A stretch of 64,000 bases of DNA, taken from contig NW_026570381.1 in the NCBI RefSeq assembly GCF_019649055.1, positions 1 to 64,000 on the forward strand. Reading direction: 5' to 3'. This document shows positions 12,740-37,614 of the stretch, in pieces. Under the pieces are notes generated by a model that saw only the letters and a program-made list of their open reading frames with translations, did not search any database and was not told the DNA's origin. The first letter of the stretch is position 1; each line of letters begins with the position of its first letter. The translations under genes were made by a program, and so were the position numbers. This DNA comes from Paramacrobiotus metropolitanus (Eukaryota; Tardigrada; Eutardigrada; Parachela; Macrobiotidae).

Positions 12740-14139
12740 TGCCTCTGGGGGGATGCCGAGCTCCTGTAAGGCTGGACACACTCCCGAATCCACGAGAAGA
12801 CGACGGTCGCCAGTGTCTGTGCGTGCTCAAAAACATCAAATTCTCTTATTCCATTTTATCACATCAATTCCGTAAAGGCACAATTCCATTTAATACAATG
12901 TGGAATAAAGAGATCCAATTATAAAAATACTATCAAATCATTAGGAACAGATCAACAGTAACAGATCAACAAAAGTATTAATCAAATTGTAGACTAGGAT
13001 CCTCCATTTCTGACTCGCAAAGGTCACAGGTCCCGTCCACCGTTTTCCGCACTTTTAATCCATTCCGCTCCGTTGAGCCTGCGCATCCGTAATGCGACTT
13101 CATCACAATCCGCTTGAGAATCAGGTGCGTATCAAGTACGACTTAGGAATACTGCTTCATCTTTGGAATAAGGTGCGTATCAATTGTACGACTTCAAATG
13201 AGATCCATAAAGGTCATGGAGGGACGTCTTTAAGACAAGCGTAGTTCGCTTCCTCCCTGGTAAAGGTCATCCTTTGTTGAGATGATCCGTTGAGATGTGC
13301 GACTCATTTTGGGTTAATGGTCCCAAAGGTCATGCGACTTCTCTTCAAATTTCCATTATAGGTCATGGAGGAACTTAGCCAATTTTCTGCGGCCTTCAAG
13401 CACTTCTTCGCTTGCCTCCCTGGTAAAACTTGCAGTTTGACCTTTCCGTCGCACATCCAACTTCAGTATGCCTCGAGCGGCCAGAGTGCCGGCAAGTTTA
13501 CCGTAACATCTCTGATGGGGCCGGCTAGTTACCGCATTAAGTTCACCCCATGAAATTTCCACATTTTAATCTTTTACTCTTGTTCGCCGCTTGTGGCTAA
13601 CATTACTACGAGAAATCCGGCTTGGTTACCGTAGTTTTTCTCGTTTTAATTTGGACACTGAATCGCTTAAAAAGAGTGCCGGCACAGTTTACCGTAACAA
13701 CTCTAATGAGGCCGGCTGGTTGCCGCATTAAGTTAACCTCATCAAATTCCACCTGTTGTCTTTCTCCTTTTCGCCGCTTGTGGCCCACTTTCGTCTTCAA
13801 GAGATCCGGCTTGATTACCGTTGCTTTCTCTTGTGCATTTATGACACTGAGTCGCTTAGAGAGGAGGGCCGGCTAACTGCCGTAGCAACTCCCTTGGGGC
13901 CGGCTTTATAGACCGAATCAATTTCAACCCAATAGTATTCCACATGATTTCTTTAGGCAATTCTGTGCTATAAATGCTGCAAACAACAAATACACAAATA
14001 CAATTATTGTTAACATGTCACGTGTCACGCCCTTTATACAACACCATTTTTTCATCTCTGTGACGTACCGACAAAGTGCCGTAGACGTCTTTTTAATAGT
14101 GTGATCCTAAAGGTCAACACTATTCCCCTAAGGTCAACA
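12740..14139 (-). other. 3' untranslated region of the giant element with ~190-bp tandem repeats
   Basis: Between the last ORF and the 3' LTR lie 1.4 kb without a gene. From about 13,380 to 13,960 a unit of roughly 190 bp recurs two to three times. Its marks are 'gtgccggc', 'gtttaccgtaacaactct', 'gccggctggttgccgcatta' and 'cgccgcttgtggc'. Pieces of the same text (cgccgcttgtggcccac, gactgccgtagcaac) recur in the 5' leader near 37,190-37,290. AAAGGTCA copies lie near 13,018, 13,209, 13,262, 13,324 and 14,108. Confidence 0.7.
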
Positions 14140-16875
14140 CTATTCCATTTCATTTGAATCGCCCTCGCCATCTCTTGGCGGGCGCTTCTTAGCACTTTCG
14201 GGTTGATTACGGTCAGATGTTCGATCGACCGGTTCAGTTGAATCAACTTCCATGACCTTTGACGGGTCAACTTCTCGCTGGCCACGACCTTTTCCTTGAC
14301 GGCTCCGCTTGACCGCCTCAAGTCGATGACGCGCGTCATTTTCTTCCAGTCGTAATTTTCGGTTATTAGGGTCATTGGCCAATCGACGTTGCACATCAGC
14401 GAGATTATCCCGAAGCTGCTGGTTCCGTATACCGCGTCGTCCCATCTGATTAGGGGCGCGTTCCGGGCGTCGGTCGCTTTTCTTCACCAGGAATTCATCG
14501 ATGTACGTTTCAACTCCGTCTACTGGTTCGACGTAGTCACTTCCCAGGGAATCTTTGATCTTGTTGACCCTTTCTTCAACTTGGGAGGCATGGCGCTGTA
14601 TCAAGTTGCCCTTTTCCATTCGTGTCTTACACTTTTTCAGCGCCTTTCGAGCTGTGTGCGCTATGCTGATATGTTCCATCGGTTGTCCCAATTTAGCGAC
14701 ATGAGCTCGGAAGAACGGTGGAATGTCGTCCTTCATAGTATTAGACACCAATTGATTCTGTGTCTTGTAATGTGCCAGTCTCGCGGCAAAGACCTTTTGC
14801 CCCATCCTTTTTGCGGCATAGTCCTTAGGATCCACCTGTAGTCCTATCGATGCTCTTGCTGCAAGCAACTTGAAGGCTGGGTTCACATGTCGTAAAACGT
14901 ACTGAGCCACATATTCTTGTCGCTCGGGATAATCTGTGTAATAAAATTGTGTCATCCCAATTGGGTCAGTCGTATCCAGCGGCACATCCAATAGACTCAA
15001 ATCCACTAAACTGTGTAGCCCATTCCGTCGGATAGGGAGATAACAATCTCGCGCAGAGTCGCGAGGGATGTATAGTCGATGGAATTTTCCTTCTTCCACT
15101 CCCTGTTTAATCTCTCTCGCATATCCTGAGTCAAGTAAGAATTGGCGCAGCTGATTCAGTATCGTACCAATCTTGTTAGCTTCGGCCGAATCCGACTCTA
15201 TTCCGAAGTATCGACAAATTTCAACTGTTTGCTCGTCAATATCATTCATATTATATTCCATATCGATGATATCCGGTTGTCGGTTATTGAATCTGGAGTT
15301 CTGTCGCTGTTCAGCCTGGCGACGATTATCCGGTTCACGATGACCTTCTGATTCACGTCGATCTCCTGATTCGGGCTGCGACGGTTCGTTACTCGCCGGT
15401 GTAGCCGGTTGAAGGTCACTATCCAGAATCACATTTCGTCGATGGGTCACGTTTTCTTGAGACGTTTCCGCAATCGAGCTGGTCCCTTCCATCAAGTCAT
15501 CTTCTTGTACGACACTCACAATTGGATCCACTACATGAACCATTGACTCCACCCGCTGATACTTTGGGGGTGAATCTTCCCTTTCCGCGCTCGATGACCT
15601 TTTACTCGCGCCAGATTCAAAACTCGCATAATACTTGGTTCGTTCTTGCCATCTCTTATCGTGTGGGTCTGGTGTTCGGTTTCGCGTATGTTCGCGTCTT
15701 TTATCCCATGACCTTTCAGGTGTTGACATTCTGACATTGCGGTTACGGAATGCAACTCCCATCGGCACCTGATGCCCTTGCTTTTCAGGTTCCGTACGGA
15801 ATGTCTCCGCACGCCGTTTTTCTTCTCGTTCCCTTGTAGCTGCCAGAATCTTGGCTGTATCAATCTTCCGCTGTATGGTCATTTCAGTTATTTCATCTCC
15901 GTGGCGCACCCATCCTCTTCCGCCACGGTAATCTCGGTCGCGGGAGCGTTCGCGTGACCTTTCAGTACGGTACTCACGTGTCCTTTCACGAGAGTGTTCA
16001 CGTGACCTTTCACTCCGTCTTTCAGAAGTCCGTTCATGTTCACGTGAATGTCCGCGTGACCTTTCTCTATGCGGAGGTGATCGAGGTCGGATAAAACCTT
16101 CATCCCGTTTAAAACCTCTGAGTGCTTGGAGCACGTCACTTTCAGTTTGGCAAGATTTACGTAAATCGTTCATACGTCTTTCGACTTCCTTCTTGATGTA
16201 CGGTGCAGGTGCAAACCCGTCTTGCAGTCGTTTTTTCTCCCGCAACAGCACTTTTAATAACTCGTCTGGCATAGCGGCTGGATCTTTCATTAACGTTTCG
16301 ATTTGGATGATGAGGGATCGACGTGTCAGCTGCACTTCCTCTTCGTTTAGGCTGGCTGTGGGTACGGCTGAACTCGATGTGCTGGGCAGCGTCTCTCGTG
16401 CAGCCTGTTCACTTGCTCTCTTGTTTTCCGCATTAATTTTCGCGCGGATTTCATCCTCCATTTGCTGAACTCGCATCTTCTCTTGATCTTCTTCAAACTT
16501 CTTTCGATACGCGTCTGTTTGTGGACACTTCAACGGCTCCAGGGTATCATCCCAGCCGGGTTCATTATTCCGGATCGCTTCTCGATAACGATCTTCGAAT
16601 AGCATTCGCTCTTCTACTGGGATGCTGCCGTAATTCCTTGCGCTTATGAGATTTCGAAAGACATCCAAGTTCCCACGTTTGGCTTCCATAATCCCAACAA
16701 GCGTAACGACATGTGGGTCTTCCAGCTTGTGAATACAAGTGTAGCAAGGGAATTTCTTATCAACCTTTTTGTTATTCCGTAAGCAGTCCGGACACTTTGG
16801 ATTATAGCCCGTAGACCGATCAATTTCTGACGTTGTTCCTGAACGTTTGGAAGTGGCTTGACCTTTCTGTGCCAT
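14140..16875 (-). CDS. Accessory ORF C: zinc-ribbon and Arg/Ser-rich protein, 911 aa
   Basis: The frame is intact and starts at ATG 16,875. Near the N-terminus four cysteines are spaced C-x2-C-x12-C-x2-C (residues 28, 31, 44 and 47), as in a zinc ribbon or treble-clef knuckle. A Glu/Lys/Arg-rich, probably helical stretch follows. At about residues 265-325 there is a dense Arg-Ser/Arg-Glu region (repeats like ERSRERSRD), resembling SR-type splicing or RNA-binding proteins. The C-terminal third is mixed, with basic and acidic blocks. It is the last gene before the 3' LTR. It has no transmembrane or signal segment, so it is not an Env. Many of its Glu-Arg-Ser and Lys-Gly-His phrases are encoded by copies of AAAGGTCA. 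I recognise no homologous family. An RNA- or chromatin-binding role is only an inference from composition. Confidence 0.8.
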   Translation of the reverse strand: MAQKGQATSKRSGTTSEIDRSTGYNPKCPDCLRNNKKVDKKFPCYTCIHKLEDPHVVTLVGIMEAKRGNLDVFRNLISARNYGSIPVEERMLFEDRYREAIRNNEPGWDDTLEPLKCPQTDAYRKKFEEDQEKMRVQQMEDEIRAKINAENKRASEQAARETLPSTSSSAVPTASLNEEEVQLTRRSLIIQIETLMKDPAAMPDELLKVLLREKKRLQDGFAPAPYIKKEVERRMNDLRKSCQTESDVLQALRGFKRDEGFIRPRSPPHRERSRGHSREHERTSERRSERSREHSRERTREYRTERSRERSRDRDYRGGRGWVRHGDEITEMTIQRKIDTAKILAATREREEKRRAETFRTEPEKQGHQVPMGVAFRNRNVRMSTPERSWDKRREHTRNRTPDPHDKRWQERTKYYASFESGASKRSSSAEREDSPPKYQRVESMVHVVDPIVSVVQEDDLMEGTSSIAETSQENVTHRRNVILDSDLQPATPASNEPSQPESGDRRESEGHREPDNRRQAEQRQNSRFNNRQPDIIDMEYNMNDIDEQTVEICRYFGIESDSAEANKIGTILNQLRQFLLDSGYAREIKQGVEEGKFHRLYIPRDSARDCYLPIRRNGLHSLVDLSLLDVPLDTTDPIGMTQFYYTDYPERQEYVAQYVLRHVNPAFKLLAARASIGLQVDPKDYAAKRMGQKVFAARLAHYKTQNQLVSNTMKDDIPPFFRAHVAKLGQPMEHISIAHTARKALKKCKTRMEKGNLIQRHASQVEERVNKIKDSLGSDYVEPVDGVETYIDEFLVKKSDRRPERAPNQMGRRGIRNQQLRDNLADVQRRLANDPNNRKLRLEENDARHRLEAVKRSRQGKGRGQREVDPSKVMEVDSTEPVDRTSDRNQPESAKKRPPRDGEGDSNEME

Positions 16876-17225
16876 TTTTCCGCTTCAATCTGCAATTATA
16901 AAACAGTCCATCATAATAACCTTTCCACGTTAATCTTTCCCATTTCTATCCGTTATCAAGGCTTTCTATCATTTTTACGCCTATTCCGTTACTGAGCTGA
17001 GACTTTCCTAGCTCCTGCTGGCTTTTCTATCACTGTAACGTGGTGACCTTTCTCACGTTATCAGCACTCTCTGGCTACTGTGACCTTTTCTATTAGTCTT
17101 ATCACTGTTCAAGTTAAACTCTTCCCGTTCCCTTCCCGTAACACTTTCTCTTTCGTTTTGTACTGTTTATGCTTTTTCTGTAATATGCAGGGTTCATTAC
17201 TCGCTGCATATTACACTCGTCCCGT
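16876..17225 (-). other. Spacer between accessory ORFs B and C
   Basis: About 350 bp without an ORF, rich in pyrimidines on the plus strand. It holds AAAGGTCA copies near 17,043 and 17,080. It may contain the splice or initiation signals for ORF C, but no clear site was identified. Confidence 0.5.
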
Positions 17226-19963: not shown

Positions 19964-20804
19964 CAAAGGGTTAGAGCCCTGCGCGAGCGCTAAATGATTG
20001 CTTCACGCTCGCTCGTGGTAGTTTAACTTTCGCAAAATCATCTTCAGCTCGCTCGTGCCATTTCGCTTGCTCGCTCGCTCGGCTCGTTTCGGCATGTCTC
20101 ACTGCTCAGATCGCTCGGCTCGTAAACCAAATCGGTTTTTCTGCTCAGTTAACTCGAAAGCAACTTAATAAAAAATTATGCATTTTAATGTTTAAATTTT
20201 CAGTCAGATAAAGTACTAATACAGATAGTATCAGGCAGCGCAGCCAGCTGCAGGTATTTTGTCATCATGTGGATATTGCAAGTATTGTCAGTTTTCATAA
20301 TTTTCATATCCTGAATGTATCATTTTATCGGTTTCGATAAGATACTCTACAGTCAAAACTTTATGACAGGCAGAAGAACCATAGTGTATTATTAATTTAT
20401 TCATACGAGTAAATCCAGCAGAGGATACAGACCAACGGCAATGGCGTAATGAGATGATGTGAAAATAATGGGCACTTTTCGTAGAAATTGTTCAAGGCCG
20501 CGTCTAATAGCGCAGACGCTACTGGTCACTGCAGAGTAGAACTAGTAGCGTCACCAAGTATGTGGCAGATTTTGCCGAGTAGTGCAGTTTTTCAAGGGCA
20601 GCACGAAATGTATTGCTCAGCTCGCTCGCGGTCCCTGAGGGCCGCTCGCTCGGCTCACTCGTTGGTCAATGACGAACAACTCGGCTCGGCTCGGCTCGTG
20701 AAAAACAGACAATAAAGACAACAGTTCGCTCATTCGGCTCGTGAGCGCCGAGCGCTCGCGAGCCGAGCCGAGGCTCGGCGCTCGCGCAGGGCTCTACAAA
20801 GGGT
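19964..20804. mobile_element. Nested hAT-type MITE (825 bp, 19,972-20,796) with 8-bp target duplications
   Basis: The insert begins TAGAGCCCTGCGCGAGCGC and ends with the reverse complement GCGCTCGCGCAGGGCTCTA. CAAAGGGT is duplicated at 19,964-19,971 and 20,797-20,804. An 8-bp duplication and TAGAG-type ends are the marks of the hAT superfamily. It carries no transposase. Both ends are rich in 'gctcgctcggctcg' phrases, probably subterminal transposase-binding repeats. It contains no AAAGGTCA copy, unlike the host element. It interrupts the accessory coding region of the giant element. Confidence 0.9.
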
Positions 20805-21237
20805 TCTTCTTAGCGTCGTAAAATACCGTTTTGTACGATCCGTCTTCCATTCGTCTTGTGAGTCGGAAATGTGCTCCATCGATCTCCGCTCGATGCCGCA
20901 TCATGCTGATCAGTGTGCTCGCTTGAACCACGGCATCTGTTCGGTCACTTTCAGGTATCAGATCCCATAACTGCTCAACGGCTGTCTGATTCGCATTTTG
21001 GGCGCTCTCTTCTGATACATCCCATGGGGCATATGGAATCGGGTCTCCTGTTATTGGGTCAACTATCACTGCAGTTATGGTTTCCACAGCTTCTCCATTA
21101 CCAGCGAAAAGTCTGAGGGTGACCTTTCTGTTTGTCGCCTCTGTATATCTTGGGATCGATTCATAATCATCTGACGATCGTTTCTTAGGGTCTGGATCCG
21201 CCGTCGGTTTTGAGCGAGTTCTCTCTTTGGTCAACAA
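20794..21237 (-). CDS. Accessory ORF A, second copy of the duplicated C-terminal domain
   Basis: This is about 147 codons in the same frame as the 609-codon block before it, separated only by an in-frame TAA at 21,238-21,240. It is cut off at its other end by the hAT insertion. Residues about 35-140 (TAVIVDPITGDPIPY, VEQLWDLIPESDRTD, ISMMRHRAEIDGAHFRL) repeat, segment for segment, the last 100 residues of the preceding block. The two are therefore tandem paralogous domains of one protein. No known family was recognised. Confidence 0.6.
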   Translation of the reverse strand: MLTKERTRSKPTADPDPKKRSSDDYESIPRYTEATNRKVTLRLFAGNGEAVETITAVIVDPITGDPIPYAPWDVSEESAQNANQTAVEQLWDLIPESDRTDAVVQASTLISMMRHRAEIDGAHFRLTRRMEDGSYKTVFYDAKKNPL

Positions 21238-23067
21238 TTAGCCATCCGTTGTGTATGTATATGCCAAGTGGTCATCATTTGTGCCCACTTTGATACGGAT
21301 CCATGCATCTTCTTCAGTCGCAACTTTAGATACCACGTGTTTCAGCATCTGAATGAGAACTCTTGGATTGTGACGTTCTTCTGGGGGAATAAACTGTAGC
21401 GCCTCGTTGACTACCGTTTTTGACTCTTCCCCAATGGCATCCTTAACTGACTTATCCGCGAGGGGATTATACGAGTCGATCTCTTTATTCGTTTTCTTAT
21501 CGACTATACGTGCCGTAACCTTTCGTTCCTTATGGTCTTCCCCAGTGTACTTGGCCGTGAAACTTCTACACTTCGGGAATCGAATCTGACCTTCTGTTCC
21601 AGCCGGTGTGGGTGGCGCACTCTTTCTACCCACTGGGACTGGGCCTTGTGGCTTTGCCAAATCAGCTGGTGTTGCTTTACCTGACGTGGCCTTCTTCGTT
21701 CGCTGCCCTTTCTTGTCAGTTTCTTTTGGGCTTATCGTTGGTGACCTTGCTCTTTTTCCACTCTTCGTGGCTCCGCTAGATGGTTCTGTAACCGAACTAG
21801 TGCGTCCACGTACTGATCCTGCGGTGGAGCTGGCCCGTGACCTTTCTGCTCGTTCAGTTAATTCAGCATCAATCTTCTTCTTTGTTGCCAAAAGGTCCTC
21901 ATCCGTCATTTCATCGACCGGGGCGTCTTTTTCAGCTATGAGTTTGGATGGTCCCGCGACGCTGGTAGTCGGCGTCTGTCTTGTTTCTGGGAACACCTTG
22001 AGATATCTAAGGATCTTTTCGACAGTCTCCGGCCACCTTCTACCTTTTATTGTCGGATGATATTGCCACATCGATGCAACTTGGATTGCGTATTCCTTGC
22101 GCTTTGCTTCAACCTGCTTCGTCTTATCTTTCATGGCAATGTGGCATGGTGTGATAACAGCTTCCAAGCTGATTAACTTTCCATACCATGCGTGTTCGTC
22201 TTCAACTCGCATGTGGATTCTGTAAAGGTCACGGCATTTCCGATTGAAGTCGCGGATGGCTTCTAAGTCGGCTTCCGTCAGTTTTTCCTTTTTATCCACT
22301 ATTAAATTCAGGTTCGGGTCATCATCTCTCAAGTCCAAAGGAAGCTTCGGTGCGTATTCATGTATTGAGGGTTCGCCTGGGGGCGTAAGCCGTAAACCAT
22401 CTGGTCCAGTCTGATCCAAATTGGGACCCAGTGACGGTAAAATGCCTCTTGGTCGCCTTCCTCCTCTGTGTGGCGAATTACGATGAGGGCGCTGTGCTCC
22501 AAGTTGCTGCGGTGTTCTCATGCGAGGCGCTCCGATGTCCGACAGTGACAAGCCTCGCGTCTCCGGAAAAGGCGGTAATATCGGGGATGACCTTTGTGAT
22601 CGCGCTGGAGTTACCATCATTCCGCCGAATCCTCCCTGTCCCGTAAATCGACTCGGTGTAGTCTGTTGCGGTGGCGGCATCAACATTCTTGCCGGTCCCA
22701 TTATCACCTGTGAGGGTCCCGACGGTGGGGTATACGATCCCGGGTACGGTTGATAAGGGGTGCCCGTTACTTGTCCCGAATACTGGGTTCCGGCAGGTGA
22801 GCCGTGGTGCACCCAGTTAACTGTGTCCTGGTAATTCGTTTGCTGTCCTGGATCGTGATACACGTAATACCCTTGGCCGCCGTAATAACCTCCTTGAACT
22901 GTTCCGGTTTCATTCTGAGCTGTTCCCATTGACGACGTCGATCCCTCACCGTATGAGGTGTCGTAACCGTATTCACCTTCCATTCTTATAGGTGTCGATG
23001 CTTTTAATGGGTTTCCAATACTTTCCGAATCAGAATTATCCGAGTTTTGCAGTTCCAGTCTTTCCAT
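21238..23067 (-). CDS. Accessory ORF A: unknown 609-aa protein, first gene after pol
   Basis: It starts at ATG 23,067, about 130 bp after the pol stop, in the position where env lies in other retroelements. No signal peptide, transmembrane segment or Env-like Cys pattern is present. The first 200 residues are Gly/Tyr/Pro/Gln-rich and likely disordered. A folded segment follows (about 235-370: LPLDLRDDDPNLNLIVDKK, WYGKLISLEAVITPCHIAM, VASMWQYHPTIKGRRW), then a Ser/Thr/Lys-rich linker. The C-terminal domain (about 500-605: TARIVDKKTNKEIDSYNP, VVNEALQFIPPEERHN, LIQMLKHVVSKV) is repeated after the stop codon. A donor-like AAG|GTAAGC lies just before the ATG. Function unknown. Several Lys-Val-Thr phrases coincide with AAAGGTCA copies. 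Confidence 0.7.
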   Translation of the reverse strand: MERLELQNSDNSDSESIGNPLKASTPIRMEGEYGYDTSYGEGSTSSMGTAQNETGTVQGGYYGGQGYYVYHDPGQQTNYQDTVNWVHHGSPAGTQYSGQVTGTPYQPYPGSYTPPSGPSQVIMGPARMLMPPPQQTTPSRFTGQGGFGGMMVTPARSQRSSPILPPFPETRGLSLSDIGAPRMRTPQQLGAQRPHRNSPHRGGRRPRGILPSLGPNLDQTGPDGLRLTPPGEPSIHEYAPKLPLDLRDDDPNLNLIVDKKEKLTEADLEAIRDFNRKCRDLYRIHMRVEDEHAWYGKLISLEAVITPCHIAMKDKTKQVEAKRKEYAIQVASMWQYHPTIKGRRWPETVEKILRYLKVFPETRQTPTTSVAGPSKLIAEKDAPVDEMTDEDLLATKKKIDAELTERAERSRASSTAGSVRGRTSSVTEPSSGATKSGKRARSPTISPKETDKKGQRTKKATSGKATPADLAKPQGPVPVGRKSAPPTPAGTEGQIRFPKCRSFTAKYTGEDHKERKVTARIVDKKTNKEIDSYNPLADKSVKDAIGEESKTVVNEALQFIPPEERHNPRVLIQMLKHVVSKVATEEDAWIRIKVGTNDDHLAYTYTTDG

Positions 23068-23194
23068 TAACTGTGCTTACCTTCTATAAAGATGAAACAA
23101 TAAAGGTTAACTTTTTGCACAGTGATGACCTTTCTTTTTGCCTTCCCAACTCCTATTTTTAATCTAGTGTGACCCCTTATTTATGTCTATGTGG

Positions 23195-27337: not shown

Positions 27338-27343
27338 AATCCG

Positions 27344-27965
27344 TTATTTGCTGCTGTGATTCGCAATGACGATTTCAAAGTACTTTCCTCTGTGATCCGT
27401 TACTCCTGCCAATGGTTGCACTTCCGTTTCCACTTGTGGGACCGGTGTAAACATCAACTTGTTTTGGGCAGGTGCGTATTTTCCCATCTTGACCTTTACG
27501 CGTGTGCAATTGGACGGTTTCAATTTGATTCTTTGGTCACTGTAGACTTTGATCACGTCTTTCGACATCCTAGCCTTTTCCACTTTCAATCTTCTGACTT
27601 TAATATCCTTTTCTTTTTCCTCATCTACTTCGTCATCTTCATCCAAGTCCATTAAATCTTCTTGTTCTGAAAGGTCACTTACACCTGAATCTTCCGAAGT
27701 CGTTGAGTTATCACTTGAACTCGTCCACTCGGAGTCGGAGTTACTGCTCTCATATTCTTGTGCAGTAGCTTGACCTTTGTCAACTTTTTCAATTGGGCGC
27801 TCATCAACTCCTTCGTCTTCTGATGAAAGGTCACTTTCGTTTTCCCGCGAATCGCTAAGTTTTTCGCTTTCAAATTTTTGAGCAGAGGTTTGTCCCCTTC
27901 TTTTGCCTTTCGTCCGTTTCGTGCGGCGACTCTTGGGTGACTCCTTGCTACCCGAATTCTCGTTG
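27344..27965 (-). CDS. pol: Pol N-terminal connector before RT (stop-interrupted)
   Basis: This is the same reading frame as the RT frame, open from about 27,990 to an in-frame TAA at 27,344-27,346. It encodes an acidic, Ser/Asp/Glu-rich linker (DLDEDDEVDEEKEKD), then a conserved-looking stretch (IKLKPSNCTRVKVKM, FEIVIANHSSK). The latter is the small beta domain that lies between protease and RT in Gypsy Pol proteins. The TAA interrupts it eight residues before KKNQLLGYVEP. It is either a nonsense mutation or a readthrough site; TAA-CGG is not a known strong readthrough context. Confidence 0.65.
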
Positions 27966-28720
27966 GTGACCTTTCTGATTGATCGGAGTTTGACCTTTCT
28001 TCGTCCGATTTTGACTTTTCCAGTTCATTTATTTCTTCGGGGCTCGTTAATGGCTTTTCGGTCAACTCGACCGGCGGACATTCCTCACCGTTATCGAGTG
28101 ACATTTCCCCGTTTTTTGCCTCCGTTACTGGGTTTTGTTGTTCATTCGATATCCTCTCAACTTCCTCTTTGAACTTCTTCCACATTTCTCCTCTATCTGT
28201 TAACATCCGTGCGATGTCGAAAGCCGACTTTGAACTTTCTTCCGTTTCGTTCGATCCTCCTTCGACTATCTCTTCAACTGGTTCCTTTTTTTCCGCTTCT
28301 TTTTCGGTCCCTTTATCAACTTCATCCTGTTGGACTGTTTCGTAACCTTTAGGTCGTTTGGGACCGACGAAAATGCAGTTTGCCATAAGTTCTTCGGTGA
28401 CCCATTCATCATTCGGAATCGTTTCATACATGCACCACGTATCGCCACCTCGTTCTGGGTAGTCCACTCCATCTGGATCTTGTGCAAAAGTCACCTTTTT
28501 CTTTTGCATTATTCCCGGTAGCCTTCTTTTCCGGGTTACCTGTAGTTCTCGCATCTCTTTTACGTCGAATTTGGGGATTTCTTCTTCAAATTTATTCCAG
28601 TATTTTTGGAATACTTCTTCGTTCCCCTCTTTTAACGCGTTGTAATATACTTCGAGTGATTCGTAGACAGGCGTACCAAGTCCTGCCGGGAAAATAATCG
28701 TCCTCCCTTCACCTTTTATA
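27900..28720 (-). CDS. Pro-Pol connector, 291+ codons
   Basis: The minus-strand frame with protein-like sequence is open from about 28,728 (upstream of its first ATG at 28,554) to 27,679. Its last part, after about 27,950, is replaced in sense by the -1 frame that leads into RT. It begins with an aromatic/acidic segment (LEVYYNALKEG, FQKYWNKFEEE) and continues with TWCMYETIPNDEW and Glu/Ser-rich repeats containing ERS phrases. It is in the +1 frame relative to the protease ORF and overlaps its end by only about 18 nt. The preceding stop in this frame is a TGA just before that overlap. No domain was recognised. It is probably a disordered linker in a Gag-Pro-Pol polyprotein. Confidence 0.5.
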
Positions 28721-31700
28721 CATGTGGTTCACACGGAAGTCCCAGAAAAGGTCAACTCTCGCTTCTTCCCACATTTCTCCTTCTTCGGTCATCTCTTCTA
28801 TCTCTCTTTCAAATCTCTTTTCGGTTGCTACCGGATCAAGGGGATCTTGGATTCCTTCCTCGACACGTTGCAACCAATGGTTTAGCCATCTGCCTCTTCC
28901 GATTATAAAACTTTCCACACATGACAACCACGTTCGATATCTATTCCAATGATACCGTTCGATGTGTGGTTTCCACATTTCGTTTGTCCGCATGATGCTT
29001 TTCACTTCCTTTTGGGCATGACCTTCAAGGTCTGCTAATGCGGTGTTACATTTCGGCCATTCTGAAAGGTCATCTCGAGAGGCATTTTCACAACATTCCG
29101 CGCATTCCCATTGTGGTTGCACTCTGCACGGATCCTCAAAGTAACCGTGGTGACAACTCCCGGCTCGTTCTTCTGGAGTTAATGTCCTTTGACTCGCTTG
29201 AGGTTTAACCTGTTCCTGTATTGTGGTGTCTTCCTCACATTCGATCGGAGTCACGCTTTTATCCTCAGAGGATATTAGAATGACCTCTGGTTCTTTTTGT
29301 GTTCTGTGACCTTTCAACTGTTCGAGCGCCTTGTTGCGGATTTCGCTCGTAAACATCTGTTCCTCTTCAGTTATTCGTTTCAAAACTCGTAACCTTTCAC
29401 TCTTTTTATCCTTCCCCACTTTAGCCGTCTTTATTTCCAGTGCCTCTGGTACTGGGATAACTTTTTCAACACATTCTTTTTCTGTGGCTCCTTGCTTACA
29501 GTCATCTGCGATCATACTTCTCCCGTCCGGGAGAAATATGATCGCCTCATCCGTATCTGGCGCAAGCGGTTCCTTTTTCTTTTCGTTAACTTCTTTGACC
29601 TTTCCACTTTCTCTTTTCTTCTCCGGTGCCTCTGGTACCGGGATTATCCGTTGGCTAATCTCGTTCTGGTGTACTCTCGTCATTCCCGGTGCCTCTGGTA
29701 CTGGGATGACCTTTTCTCTTCCCTTTTGTGTCAGCATTGTCCGGTTTAACGTGTTTTCAATCTCCTGTTGAATCATTTGCAGCTGTTCAAATGGTGACAA
29801 TCCTTTTGGAAACATCTTTTTCTTTTCGTTCCCCGGTGCCTCTGGTACTGGGATTAGCGTTTTATTGGCCGTTTGACCATTTTCCTGTTTTGCAAGTTCG
29901 GTGACCTTTCCGACTTGTACTTTAGCAACTGGTTTCGGGTCATCTTCTTTTTCTTCTTCGCCTTCGTTATCCATCAGTACAAATTTCTTTTCCAAGAAGT
30001 CAAATCCCAATAACACCTGTACGTCGTCACACTTCGGTCGGACGTAGAAGGAATGTTCGCTTGTCTTCTTTCGTAAGGTCACCGGTGCTACACAGTAATG
30101 CGTCACCAAGAATCCTGACGTTCCACTAATTCCGTTTATCTTCACCAATCTGTCTGGTGGCAATGGGAGCATATGAAGTCCATTCTTCTCGCAAAACGGT
30201 TTGCTGATCAGCGACGTCTCAGCGCCGGTGTCCAACATTGCGTTGACCTTTATGTCTCCCACTTTCACCTCATGTGTGTACGCTTCAATTCTTTTGGGCA
30301 GTTTTCCATTTTGAATTTTCAACGTGTGAATCTTGCATTTTACAGGAATCAGCGATACTGGTCCCGGATCCATATCGGGAAGCACCTGTCCTTTTACTGA
30401 AGTGCTATGACCTTTCAGTATTTCGCTCAACTTATCAATCCTGTGTGGAACGTCAGTTCGGACATCGTAGTATTTTCGCGGCTTTTCTTTATTTGTTTGC
30501 TTCTGCATTTTCTGCACTTGCTCATTTGCTTTTGTGCTATCCTCGTGACCTTTAGTCACTTCATTTATCGTCTGATGAATCAGTTCCTCTTTACGGTTTT
30601 CATTTCGCTTATCTCGCAGCTTCTCGATGACTTCGCTTGTTATTTGGTCGGCTTGCTTCAGTTCGTCTGCTTCACTGTCTTTCATCTCATCTGGTGACCT
30701 TTCGTATGTAACCATGTCATATCCTTTTTCGGTCATCCATTGCATCACTTTTGCAGATACTTCATTATTCGTTTTCGTTGGGTCAACTTGCGAAGACATC
30801 CCGTCTGTTCGGGCTGGTGACTTGTCGTTAGCGTCCTTCTGTAGTGCTTGCGATAAGTCCCGTGACCTTTCGACTGCGTTACTCTGTCGCGTTTGCGCCA
30901 TCTCATTTGACCGTCCTTTTTGTTCATTTTGCGCTAAGTCCTGTGACCTTTCGTTGCGCTTCATGACAAATCCGCCGTTTGTCAGCTTTTGTATGGAAAC
31001 TTTTTCTCCGTAATTCGGCGGTTTATCCTGTGGTGGAGCATTACGTGAATAATTCCAGTCAGCGAATGTCTTCTTATATTCCTCTGGATTGAATACTGGG
31101 ACTGGGTTCGATGACCCTTGCGCTGGTTTCCCGGTAACCAACTCTTCCAGTCGCTTTCTTTCACATTGCGTTCGCAGCTGTTGCATGTCCCAGTAGTCCT
31201 CTTGTGACATTCTCGCTTTCTGCTTTGCTTTCGGCGTCACAGGTATCCACATCCCGTGATTGCCATTCGGTCTGTAGGCCACTTTTTGCCACTTCTCCTT
31301 CTGTTGCAGAGTTACTGCATCAACAAGTGAGTCTTCGGAGTCCTGTTGTGCCAGTTCGCTATTCTTCTGCTGCGCTGTCCGCAGTGTCAAGTCCGTTTCT
31401 TGACCTTTTAACACGGCACTTTCACCGTGACCTTTAGCGTTCGCACTTGCTCCTTGACCTTTCAGTTGGACTTTTCCCACAGAAGGTGACCTTTCATCTT
31501 TACTGTTAGTGATATTCTGCTCAATCCATTTTTGCCTTATCAACTTCTCTTCTTCGTCCTCTGAACAATTCCAGAACTTTGGCTTTATCTCTCCGTAACA
31601 GTCGCAACCTGGTTCATTCGCTTTATCATTTTCTGCCAAGTATTTCCGGAATTTCGCATGTTGCTCATTTTCTTCTTGCGCAGTATCGTTCTGCGGTTTC

Positions 31701-32431
31701 TTCTGATCCAGCAACGCCTGTTTAATCTTTGCGTTCCGTTGTGCGCGTCGTTGCGCTAACACTTCTTCGCTGCAGTACGGTGACCTTTCGTTTTGCTGCA
31801 CTTTTTGCAGTGTCGCGCTACCGTCACGACAATTTCCACTCGCAGTACCATTCTGCGGTGACCTTTGGTCCCGTTGCGCGTTTCCACTCGCAGTACCATT
31901 CTGCGGTGACCTTTTATCCACTTGAACATTTCCACTCGCAGTACCATTCTGCGGTGACCTTTTGTCCACTTGAACATTCCCACTCGCAGTGCCATTCTGC
32001 GGTGACCTTTGATTCTGTGACGGTATCCTTATAACCGTTCCATTCCCTTTTTGCGGTGACGGCATCCATATAGCCGTTTCTCTTCGCTGTGGCGGCATGC
32101 ATCTAGCCGTTTCTTGTGGTTGCGGCATCCATATAGCCGGTCCATTTTGCTTTTTCGCTGACGGCATCCATATAGCCGTTGCAGTGGTCACATTCACTGC
32201 AGTACCATTCTGCAGTGGTGACCTTTCCCTTTTATCCGGTGGTTTAGGGTCGGGTCGATCAGTAGGCTCACCGGTGCCTACTGATCTTGCCCGTTTCCCT
32301 GAACCGGCGCCCCACCTTGTTGCACGCCTTGCACATTTCCTTGCACATTTCCTTGTTGTTGTCCGATATCGTTTGCCGGGTTAGGATTCTGTCCGTTGCC
32401 ATTGTTGTATTGGCCACCACCCTGTTGGTAG
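28709..32431 (-). CDS. pro: Pro ORF: aspartic protease in a repeat-rich 1,162+ codon frame
   Basis: The frame is open from 32,431 (overlapping the end of gag by 154 nt in the -1 frame) to a stop at 28,709. It has no need of its own ATG, which fits expression by -1 frameshift at GGGAAAC (32,293-32,299). The N-terminal part carries five AIWMP-like repeats and four or five 16-residue repeats with RSPQNGTASGN. The retroviral-type aspartic protease is near residues 645-755 of the 1,162-codon part: AMLDTGAETSLIS with the catalytic DTG, and VQVLLGFDFL as the second conserved strand. After it come four copies of an IPVPEAPG phrase and, near 29,160-29,040, a Cys/His-rich segment (CHHGYFEDPC, CAECCENAS). 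Lys-Gly-His, Lys-Val-Thr and Glu-Arg-Ser triplets encoded by AAAGGTCA are frequent. Confidence 0.85.
31790..32010 (-). repeat. 48-bp tandem repeats in the pro ORF
   Basis: Units spaced 48 bp apart at about 31,857, 31,905, 31,953 and 32,001 read 'ccattctgcggtgacctttt' plus a variable part. Each encodes RSPQNGTASGN plus five residues. Every unit contains one TGACCTTT, the complement of AAAGGTCA. A 48-bp unit keeps the reading frame. Confidence 0.85.
32040..32190 (-). repeat. Tandem coding repeats (AIWMP)
   Basis: The plus-strand phrase 'ggcatccatatagccgtt' recurs with small changes about five times between 32,040 and 32,190. It encodes A-I-W-M-P repeats near the beginning of the protease ORF. 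Confidence 0.75.
32257..32299 (-). promoter_or_regulatory. Programmed -1 ribosomal frameshift signal (gag to pro)
   Basis: Read on the minus strand, the last gag codons are CAG GGA AAC. The heptamer G-GGA-AAC (32,293-32,299) is in phase and fits the X-XXY-YYZ rule; GGGAAAC is a known retroviral slippery site. Six nucleotides later a perfect 11-bp stem forms from GATCAGTAGGC and GCCTACTGATC (32,276-32,286 and 32,257-32,267) around an 8-nt loop. The gag stop TAG lies inside the stem. The -1 frame leads directly into the protease ORF. Loop bases GGTGA could also pair with a TCACC about 30 nt further on, which would make a pseudoknot (inference). Confidence 0.88.
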
Positions 32432-33729
32432 TTATCTTGGCCGCCTCCATTGTTCTGGCCTCCTCTGAAGTTTCCGCGGCCATAGCCTCTGTTCCTTCCT
32501 CTGAAGCCGCCGCGGCCGAAGCCACCACGGCCGTAGCCGCCATTCTGGCCACCGCCATTTCCATTTCCGTAGTTCCCGTTTCCATTCCCTTGTTGGTTTT
32601 GGAAGTTTGCTTTGTGCTGGTACCACTGGGTGATGAGGTCATATCCATTATTCACCGCTAGGCGCCAGCCGCCTGTGGCGCGCAGTCGTTGCCATTCCCT
32701 GAAGGCAAACAGATTCGGATTCTGTTCCGGTGGTGTATTGGCGAACTTGCATCCTTGTGTCTGATGATTGCCATACATACAGTACTGGCACATCTGCACA
32801 TTGTTCGCCACCCATCCGTCAATCATTTGAAATTTAAACTCTGTTCGTGACCCTTGATTCTGCTGAAGGTTATTTTGATTTCCTCTGTTTGGCTGGAAGT
32901 TGCCTTGACCTTGACCTTGATTCTGAAAGTTTCCTTGACCTCCGTTCCAGTTTCCATTTCCGTATCCATTTCCGCCGAAGTTTCGGTTACCCCCTCCTTG
33001 TTGTGGTAACCCGACATTCATAGGGGCCACATTCTGTGGTACTGGTGGAGCCACATTCTGAGGTACCGGTCTCACCTGAGCTGCCGCTTGTATCGCCGCT
33101 ACCATTGCGTACGTTATCGGTTGCCCCGTCTGACTGTCGATAAAGGTCACTTTTTCCGTGACCTCTCTAACCGGAGTCTCCACTCGGTATTCAACTGGTT
33201 GCTGAACTGGTGCAGCTGCCATTCGCTGTTGCGGCACATTTTCGACTTGGCCTTGGCGGATGGTCACGTACTCCTGGTTACGTTGACCTTTAGGCGCCTT
33301 ATATTTCTCTTCGCCGGTGGCCCAATGTCGAAAGAAATCCTTCACGTCCGCTGGCGTCTTGCACTTTTGTATACGCAGGGCTTTGTAGAGCTCATTGTCG
33401 ACTCTACATCCTTCGATTAAGAAGCCCACGGCCTGTTTCTCAGTAATGATTCTCTTTGCCTTAAACCGCATCATCGCTTGATAGTATTGGTCAAGCGATT
33501 CTTTTCCGAGTTCAAATTTCCTTGCGTAGGCCTCACGTAAGCCTAGGACTTCTTCATCTCGGTCACCGTATTCATCTTTAAATTTGTCCATCCATTCGGT
33601 TATTGAGTATTCAATTCCATCTTCTGCCGCGATGTCCTTTTCTCCTTCGAACCAGGTTTTGGCAGGACCTTTCACCGCACTGGCTATCTCAATCATGATT
33701 TGGTCGTCCGTCAGCTGGTAAGTCACCAA
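32278..33729 (-). CDS. gag: Gag, capsid and nucleocapsid part (483 codons)
   Basis: The first 150 residues have the retrotransposon Gag pattern (LTDDQIMIEIASAVKGPAKTW, YYQAMMRFKAKRI, GFLIEGCRVDNEL), as in the retrotrans_gag capsid domain. A CCHC zinc knuckle follows near residue 310 (CQYCMYGNHQTQGC, C-x2-C-x4-H-x4-C). The tail is Gly/Asn/Gln-rich with RGG-type repeats (GRGGFGRGGFRGRNRG), which would bind RNA. The frame has no ATG of its own at the beginning: it opens at 33,729 with TTG directly after a TGA. It is in the -1 frame to the upstream 803-codon ORF, which ends seven bases later. It ends in the frameshift signal into pro. Confidence 0.85.
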   Translation of the reverse strand: MVTYQLTDDQIMIEIASAVKGPAKTWFEGEKDIAAEDGIEYSITEWMDKFKDEYGDRDEEVLGLREAYARKFELGKESLDQYYQAMMRFKAKRIITEKQAVGFLIEGCRVDNELYKALRIQKCKTPADVKDFFRHWATGEEKYKAPKGQRNQEYVTIRQGQVENVPQQRMAAAPVQQPVEYRVETPVREVTEKVTFIDSQTGQPITYAMVAAIQAAAQVRPVPQNVAPPVPQNVAPMNVGLPQQGGGNRNFGGNGYGNGNWNGGQGNFQNQGQGQGNFQPNRGNQNNLQQNQGSRTEFKFQMIDGWVANNVQMCQYCMYGNHQTQGCKFANTPPEQNPNLFAFREWQRLRATGGWRLAVNNGYDLITQWYQHKANFQNQQGNGNGNYGNGNGGGQNGGYGRGGFGRGGFRGRNRGYGRGNFRGGQNNGGGQDNYQQGGGQYNNGNGQNPNPANDIGQQQGNVQGNVQGVQQGGAPVQGNGQDQ

Positions 33730-36089
33730 TCAGTTTTTTTCACCAATCGTGTCCACCCACTTACTGTGTCACGACTGCCGTCAAAGGTCATGAGTGGTGT
33801 TTTCCTGGCCATCGAGTTGAGTGCTTTTGTCAATTGCACCGCTGTATTTTCTGCTCTCTGGTCATCGTCTTCTTCGCTACTTCCATCATCACTTTGATTT
33901 CGTTTCGCCTTTCCATAACGGGATTTCCTAGGACGCTCCTGCCGGCTGGAGGGTCTGTCCCGTCGCCCTTCATCAATGAACACGTTTGTTTCAAAGTGCG
34001 AGGGAAATTGTGATGGGTCACCTCGACTCATATGCGGGTTACTTTCCAAAGGTGGCTCTTTGTCTTCTTTGCCCTTTTCTCCTTCTCGTTCCGCTTTTAC
34101 GCTTCCTTTACCGGTACCAGTTCGTTTTGGCACTTCAAAGTGGAAGCTTTTACCTGTGCCCGTTTCGTGCGCCTTGCTGTAACTGGGCGGCGGTGATTCC
34201 ACTGTCGCTGCTCTAACTCCGTGTTGTAGGAGCTGTTCATCTTTATGCTTGTTAGACATTTGAAGTGCTTTATTCTCATCTTCGAGACGCTTAATCCTTA
34301 AATCGGATTGTTCTTTTTCATTCTTCAAGTTCTGGTTCTCTTGGTTGACCTTCGACATGTGCTGATGTAACTGAAGCGTTTTGTCCTGGATGACCTTTTC
34401 AGTATCGTTTTCGACTCTCCTGATGTGTTCCGCCAACTGGGTCACATCTCGTTCCAATTTCGAATACTCATCGGCTGCTGCTTTCAGCTGGGTTTTTGAC
34501 TGATTGACCTCGTCTTCTCTCGTCATTGCCGTTTGGGTCATATCGATCAACTCCGTGTTGAGTTTGATGATCTCCTGTGTCTTCTGATGGACTGTCCGTT
34601 GCCACTCTTTATCTTTCAGTTCAAGTACCGTGACCTTTTCGTCCAAGAGGTGTGCCTCGTGCTCCCACCTCGCGCCTTGTTCTGCAATTGTCTTGGCGGC
34701 TTCTTTTAACTCTTTAATCTCATCGGTGACCTTTTTGTTGTCATCCTTCAACGCCTTGTTCTCTTGCATCACCTGTCTTATTTCGTTATTAAACCGTACT
34801 CCTTCGGTGGCTGTAAGATCTCGCAAGTCCTTTGCCACCTTAGCGGCTTCGTCAGCCCTCCTCTGGTGATCGTATGACTCCTTCTGAAGGGTCCCGATAT
34901 TCTCGTCGCGGAGCTTCAGGTCATTCCTAAGCTTGAAGACTTCAGTGGTGTTCGTCAACAACCGCTGAGTAGCGTCGGCGAGTTTGGTTGCGTATTCATC
35001 TCTTTTCGTTTCAGCTTCGGTGACCTTCATTTTCTGTGAGTCGCATTCGTCCATCAATTCCGCTAAGTGCCGTGACCTTTCGGCTGATTCTTCTGACATG
35101 CTCTCGTTGAGGTCACTGACTGCAAGATGACCTTCCATTTCTCTGTCATCCACCATCTTCAAGTATTCTTCCGCGAGTTCTCGTTGACGTTCGTATTTGA
35201 TTTTCCATTCGTCCGCTGCGCTCTCTAAGTCAACCTGTTGTTGTTCCAATACGTATATTCGGGCTTCCAGCGATGACAGTTTTTCCCGAATTTCTCTCAT
35301 TCGCTTCGTTGCCTGACTTTCCTTGGCCTCGAGTTCGTCTTCCAACTCTCTAACACGAGTTCTCAAAGTCGTTGTGGGGCTGTTCGGTGATGGTGGTCTA
35401 ACATTGATGACCTTTCCTGTTTTTGTCCGTTCGATGAGGTGCTCCGGTATGTCTTTGAATAGTATCGTCCCCTCAGCACGGTCGGCTTGTCTCATCGCGG
35501 ATTGGAAGGACACATTCATCGTCGTTTCATCGTCCGTGAAGTATGATTCATTTGATTCGTCTGACACCATTGGAGTGGCCCAAAGGTCATCGTCTACAGT
35601 CTTGTCATTCAATGAAAGGTCACTCAGTCCCAGTTCAGCAAATTCCTCTTCGGTGACCTTTGTCTTTTCCGTTTCCGATCGAGTCAGGTTCACCTTTTTA
35701 TCCTGCTCATTCGTTCCGCTGATGGTAGCATCCAGCTGTGATGCCCCCATTGCTTCCGCTCCTGTTTCTGTGGACTTCTCCTCCCCGGTGACCTTTATCT
35801 GGTTCATCGGATCACTTCCCGCCATGGATGCGGGAGTGTGCTTCTGGTCGTCACTGGAGCTTTCCTGATTGGCGACCGCCTCGAGCGCCTTCTGATAAGT
35901 GCTATCAGAGCCTCGTGAATCCTTCTTCTCGAATGCCTTGGGCGCTCGGGTATTCCGCTCATGTCCAACTGGACGTGAGTACGGGTACAAGTCCTTTTTG
36001 TACGGGTTCGGTGCGCTTTGCTGTGAGCTGCGGGAGCTTTTACTTCCCTGACTGCTGTTGGATGTCGGTTCCTCTTGGTCTTTGTCCAT
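33723..36089 (-). CDS. gag: Gag, N-terminal coiled-coil part (about 788 codons)
   Basis: It starts at ATG 36,089; the frame is open from 36,134 but a TAA lies just upstream. The first 250 residues are Ser/Thr/Lys/Glu-rich and disordered. About residues 250-600 form a long heptad-patterned coiled coil (for example LRTRVRELEDELEAKE, KALKDDNKKVTDEIKELKE). A charged stretch follows, then the first residues of a capsid domain (FDGSRDTVSGWTRLVKK), so the ORF ends inside the capsid domain that continues in the next frame. Such a long coiled-coil N-terminus is unusual for Gypsy Gag. Some N-terminal sequences carry Glu-Arg-Ser or Lys-Val-Thr at AAAGGTCA copies. The stop TGA at 33,723-33,725 is best read as a frame break or a frameshift site. 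Confidence 0.8.
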   Translation of the reverse strand: MDKDQEEPTSNSSQGSKSSRSSQQSAPNPYKKDLYPYSRPVGHERNTRAPKAFEKKDSRGSDSTYQKALEAVANQESSSDDQKHTPASMAGSDPMNQIKVTGEEKSTETGAEAMGASQLDATISGTNEQDKKVNLTRSETEKTKVTEEEFAELGLSDLSLNDKTVDDDLWATPMVSDESNESYFTDDETTMNVSFQSAMRQADRAEGTILFKDIPEHLIERTKTGKVINVRPPSPNSPTTTLRTRVRELEDELEAKESQATKRMREIREKLSSLEARIYVLEQQQVDLESAADEWKIKYERQRELAEEYLKMVDDREMEGHLAVSDLNESMSEESAERSRHLAELMDECDSQKMKVTEAETKRDEYATKLADATQRLLTNTTEVFKLRNDLKLRDENIGTLQKESYDHQRRADEAAKVAKDLRDLTATEGVRFNNEIRQVMQENKALKDDNKKVTDEIKELKEAAKTIAEQGARWEHEAHLLDEKVTVLELKDKEWQRTVHQKTQEIIKLNTELIDMTQTAMTREDEVNQSKTQLKAAADEYSKLERDVTQLAEHIRRVENDTEKVIQDKTLQLHQHMSKVNQENQNLKNEKEQSDLRIKRLEDENKALQMSNKHKDEQLLQHGVRAATVESPPPSYSKAHETGTGKSFHFEVPKRTGTGKGSVKAEREGEKGKEDKEPPLESNPHMSRGDPSQFPSHFETNVFIDEGRRDRPSSRQERPRKSRYGKAKRNQSDDGSSEEDDDQRAENTAVQLTKALNSMARKTPLMTFDGSRDTVSGWTRLVKKTDW

Positions 36090-37602
36090 GTTGATCGGAT
36101 AACTTGGACGCTCCTGCCAATTGTTCTCACACACACGTTATTGTATGGTTTATTCAGTTATCCTAAAGGTCACTTTGTACTTCGAAATTTTTTCCAAGTC
36201 CTTTGTAAAGGTCACTTTTCGGTTGAAAAATTTCGACTAAGTCCCGTTTTAAAGGTCACTTTTTCGATGAAAAGTTCGAGAGATTTGCCCTAAAGGTCAC
36301 TCTTCAGACAAAACTTCGAAGCCGTTCTTACGGTTCAGAACATGTTTACAAATGAAATCCTACAGCTGCTGATATCGCTGTACTACTATTCACTTCAATT
36401 TCACTTCGCTAAAGGTCACTATTGGTCGCTTTCAGGTCATAAAGGTCACGTAACTAAGTCAATTTGGTCAATTCTAACTTTTAAGTAAAGGTCACTTTTC
36501 AAAGTCGAAGGTCACGTTCTGATCTCAAAGGTCACTTTCCGACTCAATTCAACTCAAAAGGTTACTTTCCAACTCAGTTTCTGTTAAAAGGTCACTTTCC
36601 GACTCGATTCAACTCAAAAGGTTACTTTCCAACTCAGTTTCTGTTAAAAGGTCACTTTCCCGCTCAATTCAAGTTAAAGGTCACTTTTAAGCTCAATTCG
36701 ATCAAAGGTCACTTTTCCTTTGTCTCAACTCAAAAGGTCACTTTTCGTCTCAATTAACTTATCTCAAATCAAATTTCCCGTTACAGCTAGTGTTCAGCGG
36801 AAAATCCCCATTCGGTTTGTTTACTTCATTCCTATTGGTCAGCTGGCTCAAATTATTCAGTTCAAATCTCAACCAATCGCAGCTCAGATAACCGACCAAT
36901 CACGTTGCTCCTCTTAAAGTTTATATCAGCCTGACGTCACGGTCAACGGCCAGACATGCGCACCGTGTGCAAAACCCCGCCTACTTTTACGCTCAGCTCA
37001 GTACGGACCAATGGAAATTGTCAATTTTACCAACTAGCCAATCCCGTAATTAATAACGGTTTTTCTACCTGTTAACCGTCCGTTCCACGGGAAAGTGATC
37101 CAGATGATCCAATTCTTCTCCACCGTCCGTTCCCGCGCTGCCGCTTTTCCGTAGCGGTTGTGCCGCCCGCTTTTTATATGCTACTGTGCCGGCTGACTGC
37201 CGTAGCAACAGTAGTGGTGCTCTACTCCAGTTTGGAGCAGTCTGATCTGGTCTTTTCCGTGCGCCCCTTTTGGCGCTTCGCCGCTTGTGGCCCACGGCTT
37301 AGGCTTCGCTGAAGCCTTGCCGAGTAACAGTGACACCAGTGTGGGTCTTCGCTGAAGACTCCACACCGAGGAACACTGTCGACTGATCTCTTGGACTCTT
37401 GCACAGCTAAGGAAACAGCACGGTTCTTCGCTGAAGATACCGTACCGAAAACCGAAGCTGGAAATCCCCGTCAAATGAGGCAGTTCACCGCTTGTGGTGT
37501 TGCGCTTTGCTGTCGGATAGACCTGTGCCTTACTGGTCGGGTTTCACGTCAAATAACAGGCCAACTTTGCGTGACACAAATCAAATCAGAGAACCACTGT
37601 CG
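36090..37602 (-). other. 5' leader of the giant element
   Basis: 1.5 kb between the primer-binding site and the gag start. The half next to gag (36,155-36,745) is an array of AAAGGTCACTTT copies. The half next to the LTR has 'cttcgctgaag' palindromes at about 37,305, 37,347 and 37,427, and 'cgccgcttgtggcccac'-type text shared with the 3' untranslated region. It has no ORF with a recognisable product. Packaging and translation signals are expected here, but none can be named from sequence. Confidence 0.65.
36155..36745 (+). repeat. Array of AAAGGTCACTTT sites in the leader
   Basis: About thirteen exact AAAGGTCA copies, nearly all continuing into CACTTT, lie 20 to 120 bases apart, with further one-mismatch copies (AAAGGTTACTTT) between them. 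All have the same orientation (plus strand), opposite to most copies in the coding regions. Part of the array is a roughly 57-bp tandem repeat ('actcaaaaggttactttccaactcagtttctgtt'). Confidence 0.9.
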
Positions 37603-37614
37603 GCTCTGCTACCA
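37603..37614 (-). promoter_or_regulatory. Primer-binding site (initiator Met-tRNA type)
   Basis: Directly after the 5' LTR the minus strand reads TGGTAGCAGAGC. The first 11 bases are complementary to the 3' end of metazoan initiator tRNA-Met (ending CUCUGCUACCA). A TGG directly after the LTR is the usual mark of a tRNA primer site and confirms both the LTR edge and the element's orientation. Confidence 0.8.

Follow-up and report, generated by a model that had tools for sequence, protein, structure and literature searches.

Selection apparently maintains a dispersed nuclear-receptor-type octamer throughout a giant Ty3/Gypsy retrotransposon of the tardigrade Paramacrobiotus metropolitanus

The DNA analysed here (the window) is a stretch of 64,000 nucleotides from the tardigrade Paramacrobiotus metropolitanus (contig NW_026570381.1, positions 1 to 64,000), in which a giant long terminal repeat (LTR) retrotransposon carries exact copies of the octamer AAAGGTCA across its leader, its genes and its 3' region. 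Comparison of this element with its relatives in the host assembly (169.8 Mb in 533 contigs) lends good sequence support to the conclusion that a dispersed DNA tag is maintained by selection acting on the element, and that this selection works on the nucleic acid. Selection for a single DNA word would thus extend into every frame of this giant element's genes, cutting synonymous change 11-fold and enriching the peptides that permit the word. A question that can rarely be tested is thereby opened to testing: how a retroelement of so unusual a size stays expressed or recognised in its host.

Both strands of the window together hold 93 exact AAAGGTCA octamers, where dinucleotide shuffles (n=100) contain 3.07 on average and never more than 8. 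All but one (92 of 93) lie within the element, at 13019-36740, the remaining 38.4 kb holding one, at 5207; 31 of the 92 are on the plus strand and 61 on the minus strand, which is the coding strand. The initial annotation had counted by eye about 89 octamers with one outlier near 5,208 and had regarded the word as confined to the element, both of which hold in the window, the confinement being established for the window only. Six permuted control octamers occur 1-2 times each in the element and 0-5 times each in the rest of the window, a second-order Markov model with the motif masked predicts 1.1 occurrences, and among the 8-mers of the internal region none is more strongly over-represented than AAAGGTCA (92 against 1.91). 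Coding and non-coding parts are both populated and, as had also been claimed, all three codon phases are used, with 10, 22 and 21 sense sites in phases 0, 1 and 2 and 12 antisense sites in nine open reading frames (ORFs). Synonymous codon shuffling within these nine ORFs, the control that the initial annotation had proposed, yielded a mean of 5.3 octamers (standard deviation 2.3, maximum 14, n=300) against 65 observed. Adjacent sites show no signal of helical phasing (0.04-0.06 at periods 10-11), and a spacing signal of 0.28 at period 3 is as codon frames and repeats predict. Genome-wide, AAAGGTCA was counted 42,562 times and the reversed word 15,522 times, elements and background taken together, while AAAGGTCAC was counted 19,414 times and AAAGGTCAG 4,042 times; the totals of these three words could be made up of a few hundred element equivalents together with background. 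Eight AAAGGTCAG words at a spacing of 90-91 bp, perhaps a satellite, were seen at G000:C1:2537724-2538368.

Twelve other copies of 16-25 kb were compared with the window element, these being all the copies with both LTRs among the 40 of 274 candidates that were scored (the parts of the element are listed further below). They contain 102, 92, 94, 77, 73, 85, 86, 91, 95, 92, 98 and 81 octamers, and six control words occur in them 0-6 times each. In short-piece alignments 781 of the 931 places aligned with a window octamer (0.84) keep the word intact, against 100,727 of 217,036 (0.46) for other 8-mers, and in the fast-changing gag1 frame the corresponding values are 0.93 and 0.29; this is the opposite of the pattern, octamers lost while the surrounding codons are kept, that had been named as speaking against selection on the word. 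Per-position identity at sense coding sites is 0.98-0.99 within the octamer, 0.85 at −1, 0.96 at +8 and 0.87 at +9, and at antisense coding sites it is 0.95-1.00 within the octamer (133 cells).

Among codons that contribute their third base to the motif and keep their amino acid, 28 synonymous changes were observed in 1483 cases where 310.8 would be expected from identical codons elsewhere in the same copies, an 11-fold depletion that bears out the earlier claim of selection on the nucleic acid; amino-acid changes at motif codons amount to 95 of 1578, with 187.5 expected. The test covered the frames of ORF914, ORF612, reverse transcriptase (RT)-integrase, part of the linker, protease, gag2 and gag1, leaving out the linker-histone-like (H15) and 147-aa (amino acid) frames, and the low-cell codons CGA, CGT, GTG, TTG and GCA have ordinary synonymous rates. 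Amino-acid selection as the sole cause is ruled out by the codon shuffle together with the synonymous test. Variation shared between copies stands at 0.044 in motif columns against 0.192 elsewhere and singletons at 0.098 against 0.151, the motif columns of this test having been picked by majority, which favours low variation. Singletons are enriched for post-insertion changes, and because change is depleted mostly in shared variation, selection probably acts mainly on the replicating element lineage and not through host use of old copies; the data fit a weaker or absent protection of the octamers after insertion.

Where the peptide allows an octamer, it is used at 10 of 13, 22 of 28 and 21 of 32 sense opportunities (66-79%) and at 4 of 5 and 8 of 10 antisense opportunities (80%). 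In each of the five classes the opportunities themselves outnumber those of residue-shuffled proteins by a factor of 3-5 (28 against 6.2 in one class), and the protein sequence therefore appears bent towards the motif, in a measure that is partly circular, as selection on the motif itself creates opportunities. It is also a weak test when applied to proteins, an unrelated spider protein (P0010) giving 12 against 5.8 and the RT-integrase ORF of the window 14 against about 5. Since use where the peptide permits is similar both ways, the excess of coding-strand sites can be a consequence of which peptides each orientation encodes, and since both orientations are used and conserved, double-stranded DNA, and not RNA, is probably the form that is read.

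The array is maintained in number while its positions turn over. The 13 copies together have 145 distinct octamer positions; the analysed pieces of the window account for 90 of these, and 30 are seen in a single copy only, in some cases where the remaining copies differ by 3-6 bases. On C1, at about 202-220 kb, a far relative for which no LTRs were detected has 87 octamers over its 19.8 kb where 1.2 would be expected, its identity to the window element being 33% in gag1, 47% in gag2, 33-53% in the protease ORF and 85% in the RT part. The aligned coding parts contain 55 octamers in the far relative and 50 in the window, of which 21 are at the same codon position, a number that may miss some shared positions at such low identity. 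As the far relative has a similar count largely elsewhere, the octamer number seems to be held while many positions move. Compact copies of 16-18 kb that lack ORF914, ORF612 and ORF147 (C136, C16 and C32) still carry 92-102 octamers, and across the 13 copies the number varies less (73-102) than the density (3.6-5.8 per kb).

The element occupies 12380-37974 (25.6 kb, with an internal region of 24.9 kb) and is composed as follows:

37975-37978 and 12376..12379: right and left halves of a 4-bp CCAG target-site duplication, read directly
37615..37974, minus strand: 5' LTR, 360 bp
37603..37614, minus strand: putative primer-binding site TGGTAGCAGAGC, immediately following the 5' LTR, read directly
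36138..37614, minus strand: 5' leader; 13 octamers, all antisense, mostly within AAAGGTCACTTT and partly in 30/60-bp tandem repeats
33723..36137, minus strand: gag1 ORF, 804 aa; 10 octamers
32278..33729, minus strand: gag2 ORF, 483 aa, RGG-rich; 2 octamers
28709..32380, minus strand: aspartic protease ORF (DTGAETSL; Pfam PF13975, 8.2e-8)
27344..28728, minus strand: linker reading frames between protease and RT
23195..27343, minus strand: RT-RNase H-integrase ORF, 1382 aa (Pfam RVT_1, RT_RNaseH, rve); 12 octamers, few in the catalytic domains
21238..23076, minus strand: accessory ORF, 612 aa, without a match in some copies
20794..21237, minus strand: accessory ORF, 147 aa
17226..19935, minus strand: accessory region with the linker-histone-like (H15) protein, its frames split in the window copy
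14140..16884, minus strand: accessory ORF, 914 aa; 7 octamers, all sense
12740..14139, minus strand: 3' non-coding region; 6 octamers, 5 antisense and 1 sense
12380..12739, minus strand: 3' LTR, 360 bp; the element is read on the minus strand
13019..36740, both strands: span of the 92 AAAGGTCA octamers

The sequence identifies it as a giant Ty3/Gypsy LTR retrotransposon: the two LTRs are near-identical (1 of 360 positions mismatched) and accompanied by the target-site duplication, Pfam matches on the minus strand run in the order protease, RT, RNase H and integrase, with Gag-like ORFs before and accessory ORFs after them. The named matches of Pol in a protein database search are Gypsy-type Pol proteins, and the nearest proteins are from P. 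metropolitanus, P0001 being 96% identical over residues 1-960 of the Pol ORF. We take TGGTAGCAGAGC to be a primer-binding site of the initiator-tRNA-Met type. One CX2CX4HX4C zinc knuckle was spotted by eye in gag2, the Pfam search giving no gag match. Octamer density peaks in the leader (13 octamers, 8.8 per kb), 22 octamers lie in the protease ORF stretch 28709-32277, partly in 48-bp repeats, and the RT/RNase H and integrase parts are sparsely occupied, with 2 each. Tandem duplication (48-bp repeats at 31803-32042 and 30/60-bp repeats at 36527-36744) enlarged part of the array and accounts for a minority of the sites.

As to the reader of the array, AAAGGTCA, present in 92 exact copies in the element, is identical to the NBRE, the monomer response element of the NGFI-B/NR4A receptors (PMC6912296), in line with the identification made in the initial annotation. 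The host has 63 zf-C4 matches. On C45, three short matches of 29, 49 and 32 residues (86, 78 and 67% identity) correspond to successive parts of an NR4A DNA-binding domain used as the query, the stretch after the fingers included, with all others in the search at 31-66%. The host is thus predicted to have an NR4A-like DNA-binding domain, split over these three matches. The first base in the 12 copies is A in 1066 cases, T in 65, G in 64 and C in 46, which presumably fits NR4A (AAAGGTCA) better than SF-1/FTZ-F1 (TCAAGGTCA) or ROR/Rev-erb. There is no requirement for T at −1. Base +8 is C in 81, T in 32, A in 24 and G in 1 of the distinct positions, and C in 43, T in 28, A in 14 and G in 2 in the far relative on C1. 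On these grounds the probability that the reader is a host monomeric NR4A-type nuclear receptor, whose binding is deduced from sequence, is put at about one half.

Taken as a whole, the best explanation, which we hold to be as probable as its negation, is that the family evolved a dispersed AAAGGTCA array that is read by an NR4A-type host receptor as an enhancer or anti-silencing platform. A giant Ty3/Gypsy family would have gained roughly 75-100 AAAGGTCA, with a next base other than G, across its leader, genes and 3' region, to be bound as double-stranded DNA by the monomeric host receptor. Many receptor molecules on each copy would then form a distributed enhancer and anti-silencing platform that keeps the whole body of the element open, so that a provirus of 16-25 kb might be transcribed end to end in the cells where transposition occurs; nuclear entry of the complementary DNA (cDNA) may be a second benefit, and selection would act mainly on the replicating lineage of elements. 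The stronger proposal, that the whole internal sequence, proteins included, is a docking array for host NR4A, with codon choice and protein composition bent to about 90 sites and the coding genome doubling as one distributed regulatory platform, is a tentative one to which we assign slightly less than even probability. The mammalian NR4A family is described as being induced by many stimuli, including cellular stress (PMC7901948). If the reader is indeed an NR4A receptor, the activity of the element would be tied to a stress-inducible receptor family in an animal group known for stress tolerance.

A number of observations weigh against this reading. Both 360-bp LTRs, where the promoter should lie, contain no octamers, and simple promoter activation is no explanation for some 90 sites that reach deep into genes as well, the sites of monomer receptors being usually in promoters or enhancers. 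The weight given to the +8 preference and to the comparison with other receptor classes rests on presumed binding preferences, and AAAGGACA, which does not obviously look like an NR4A site, likewise exceeds the background in retention (0.72 against 0.48). The contrast is weaker in non-coding parts, where octamers of the leader are kept in 100 of 156 places (0.64) against 0.41 for other 8-mers and antisense sites have per-position identities of 0.90-0.97 against 0.74-0.97 in their flanks. Singletons in the motif columns of the leader are at 0.291 against 0.198 for the rest, shared variation in a small gap region is 0.167 at motif columns against 0.138 (24 columns), and for GCA, ATA, AGT, ACA and GGA codons touching the motif by their third base, amino-acid change exceeds that elsewhere (10-29 cells each). 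The same applies to the majority choice of motif columns and the circularity of the opportunity measure mentioned above. Octamers are, furthermore, found outside recognised copies: three AAAGGTCACTTT loci (L003-L005), picked for holding an octamer and without similarity to the element, have 3, 1 and 2 per 3 kb, and seven plus-strand AAAGGTCA lie within 11 kb at G000:C1:299727-310562.

It is possible, if unlikely, that the octamer is read by a different DNA-binding factor of the host with a similar site, be it ERR, FTZ-F1, some other nuclear receptor or a non-receptor protein, for instance in an insulator of the kind formed by Su(Hw) on gypsy. AGGTCA is common to many receptors, and the 63 zf-C4 matches of the host offer candidates for such a role. 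The strongly kept first A (1066 against 46-65 for each other base) and the dispensable T at −1 count against this explanation, and we presume that they disfavour FTZ-F1 and ERR. The precedent is the Drosophila gypsy insulator, in which the 5' untranslated region carries 12 Su(Hw) sites; like the present family, gypsy is a Ty3/Gypsy element with a leader array for one DNA-binding protein, the reader being deduced in our case (PMC2374998). The tardigrade array differs from it in spanning the whole internal region, genes included, with approximately 75-100 octamers of a nuclear-receptor type.

An element-encoded protein (Gag, the Pol tail or the H15-like protein) is a rather improbable reader, through which the octamer would serve cDNA condensation, nuclear entry, chromatin coating or self-recognition. 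A private tag of this sort would explain a motif that runs throughout the internal region, is confined to the element within the window and is kept in number in compact copies, and the element does encode a linker-histone-like protein whose relatives (9 proteins), among the best 7995 candidates, are from this species only. The octamer, however, matches a known host receptor element exactly; Pfam detects no DNA-binding domain in ten element ORFs apart from the integrase and the H15 match, which itself falls below the curated cut-off (PF00538, E 4.5e-4, 20.8 bits against 22.4); and the structure model of the H15 ORF (pLDDT 35) was too poor to be used. Moreover, C66 and C60 lack an H15 match and C136, C16 and C32 lack ORF914, ORF612 and ORF147, and these five copies hold 77-102 octamers, so that the initial suggestion of the H15-like or zinc-ribbon protein of the element as reader is weakened. 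C136 and C16 carry a diverged H15-like frame, and helper proteins acting in trans would keep this explanation alive.

Use at the RNA level, as a small-RNA target array or sponge, a packaging signal or a splicing element on the transcript, is very improbable: 61 of the 92 sites are indeed on the coding strand, but 31 are antisense, including all 13 leader sites of the window, antisense coding sites are conserved, and use where the peptide allows is similar both ways (antisense 12 of 15, small numbers). Barely credible is the absence of any function, with common descent and duplication, biased mutation or gene conversion spreading the word among copies that are related and hold some sites in tandem repeats, as coding conservation ends near the octamer boundary while the flanks diverge, synonymous change is 11-fold depleted, and a relative at 33% gag1 identity has a similar number of octamers largely at other places.

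The octamer looks like a trait gained in one branch, as judged from the proteins of a sister family and from word listings rather than from sister-family DNA, because these proteins show little surplus of opportunity and leader-type words are lacking around the members on C1. P0003 is 47% identical over the whole query and P0004 64% over a third of it; if the predictions are exact they allow at most 4 and 6 octamers, respectively, with 3.2 and 4.1 in shuffled versions. No AAAGGTCACTTT was listed on either strand in C1 866374-1371781, 1371792-1787747 and 2599884-3737552, stretches that hold four sister members, and no AAAGGTCAC among plus-strand places in C1 866371-946106, 1256697-1371781 and 1397788-1453276.

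The LTRs and leaders of retroelements are known to carry transcription-factor sites, and bacterial DNA uptake sequences are short words, read as DNA, that lie scattered in either orientation over coding and non-coding sequence; the present case differs from the latter in being a eukaryotic retroelement for which no uptake process is known. Among the literature matches listed, none describes this element or AAAGGTCA arrays in retrotransposons. The NBRE, the same octamer, is described in the promoters of target genes, while here it is mostly within the coding sequence of a mobile element (PMC6912296). Burro of planarians and Ogre of plants are likewise giant Gypsy elements with extra coding parts, the internal region of Burro reaching up to 25 kb against 24.9 kb here; the tardigrade element differs in its host, its accessory genes and its short 360-bp LTRs, and the part of the source at hand mentions no dispersed motif for them (PMC6431247). 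Burro-type apoptosis- or ubiquitin-related domains and Env homology were not detected by Pfam at E up to 0.1 in the ten ORFs, remote env homology lying outside that search. The tests applied here, namely synonymous retention, opportunity-corrected use and turnover in far relatives, are transferable to other giant elements.

Some further observations concern the element itself. The 9 proteins related to the H15-like protein (window 17226-18863, minus strand; the best 7995 candidates by shared words were scored) are all named P. metropolitanus, and neither the H15 ORF nor ORF914 has a relative of solved structure at E up to 1. A KRGRPRK stretch, seen by eye in the C-terminal tail of Pol (window 23195-24103, minus strand) and present too in P0003 and P0004, resembles what we take to be an AT-hook. 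One scan for relatives of Pol among viral contigs gave none. In the window the protease, linker and RT-integrase frames are separate (23195-32380, minus strand), while in some other copies one uninterrupted frame of about 3000 aa spans the Pol match. An 858-bp block at 19936-20793 without octamers is probably an insertion peculiar to the window copy, because five of the six copies with both adjoining ORFs show no similarity to it (the sixth, 4%). The start of contig C205 (124,849 bases; G000:C205:1-359) falls inside the LTR of a family copy and is probably an assembly break.

The window was found to be without known RNA families or tRNAs. Outside the element, the stretches 8376-9061 and 1266-1467 hold an inverted repeat with 216-nt arms (90%) and a further related arm approximately 7 kb away, which looks like a small mobile element in the flank, and a 187-bp unit is present in four tandem copies, 66-100% alike, at 59025-59776.

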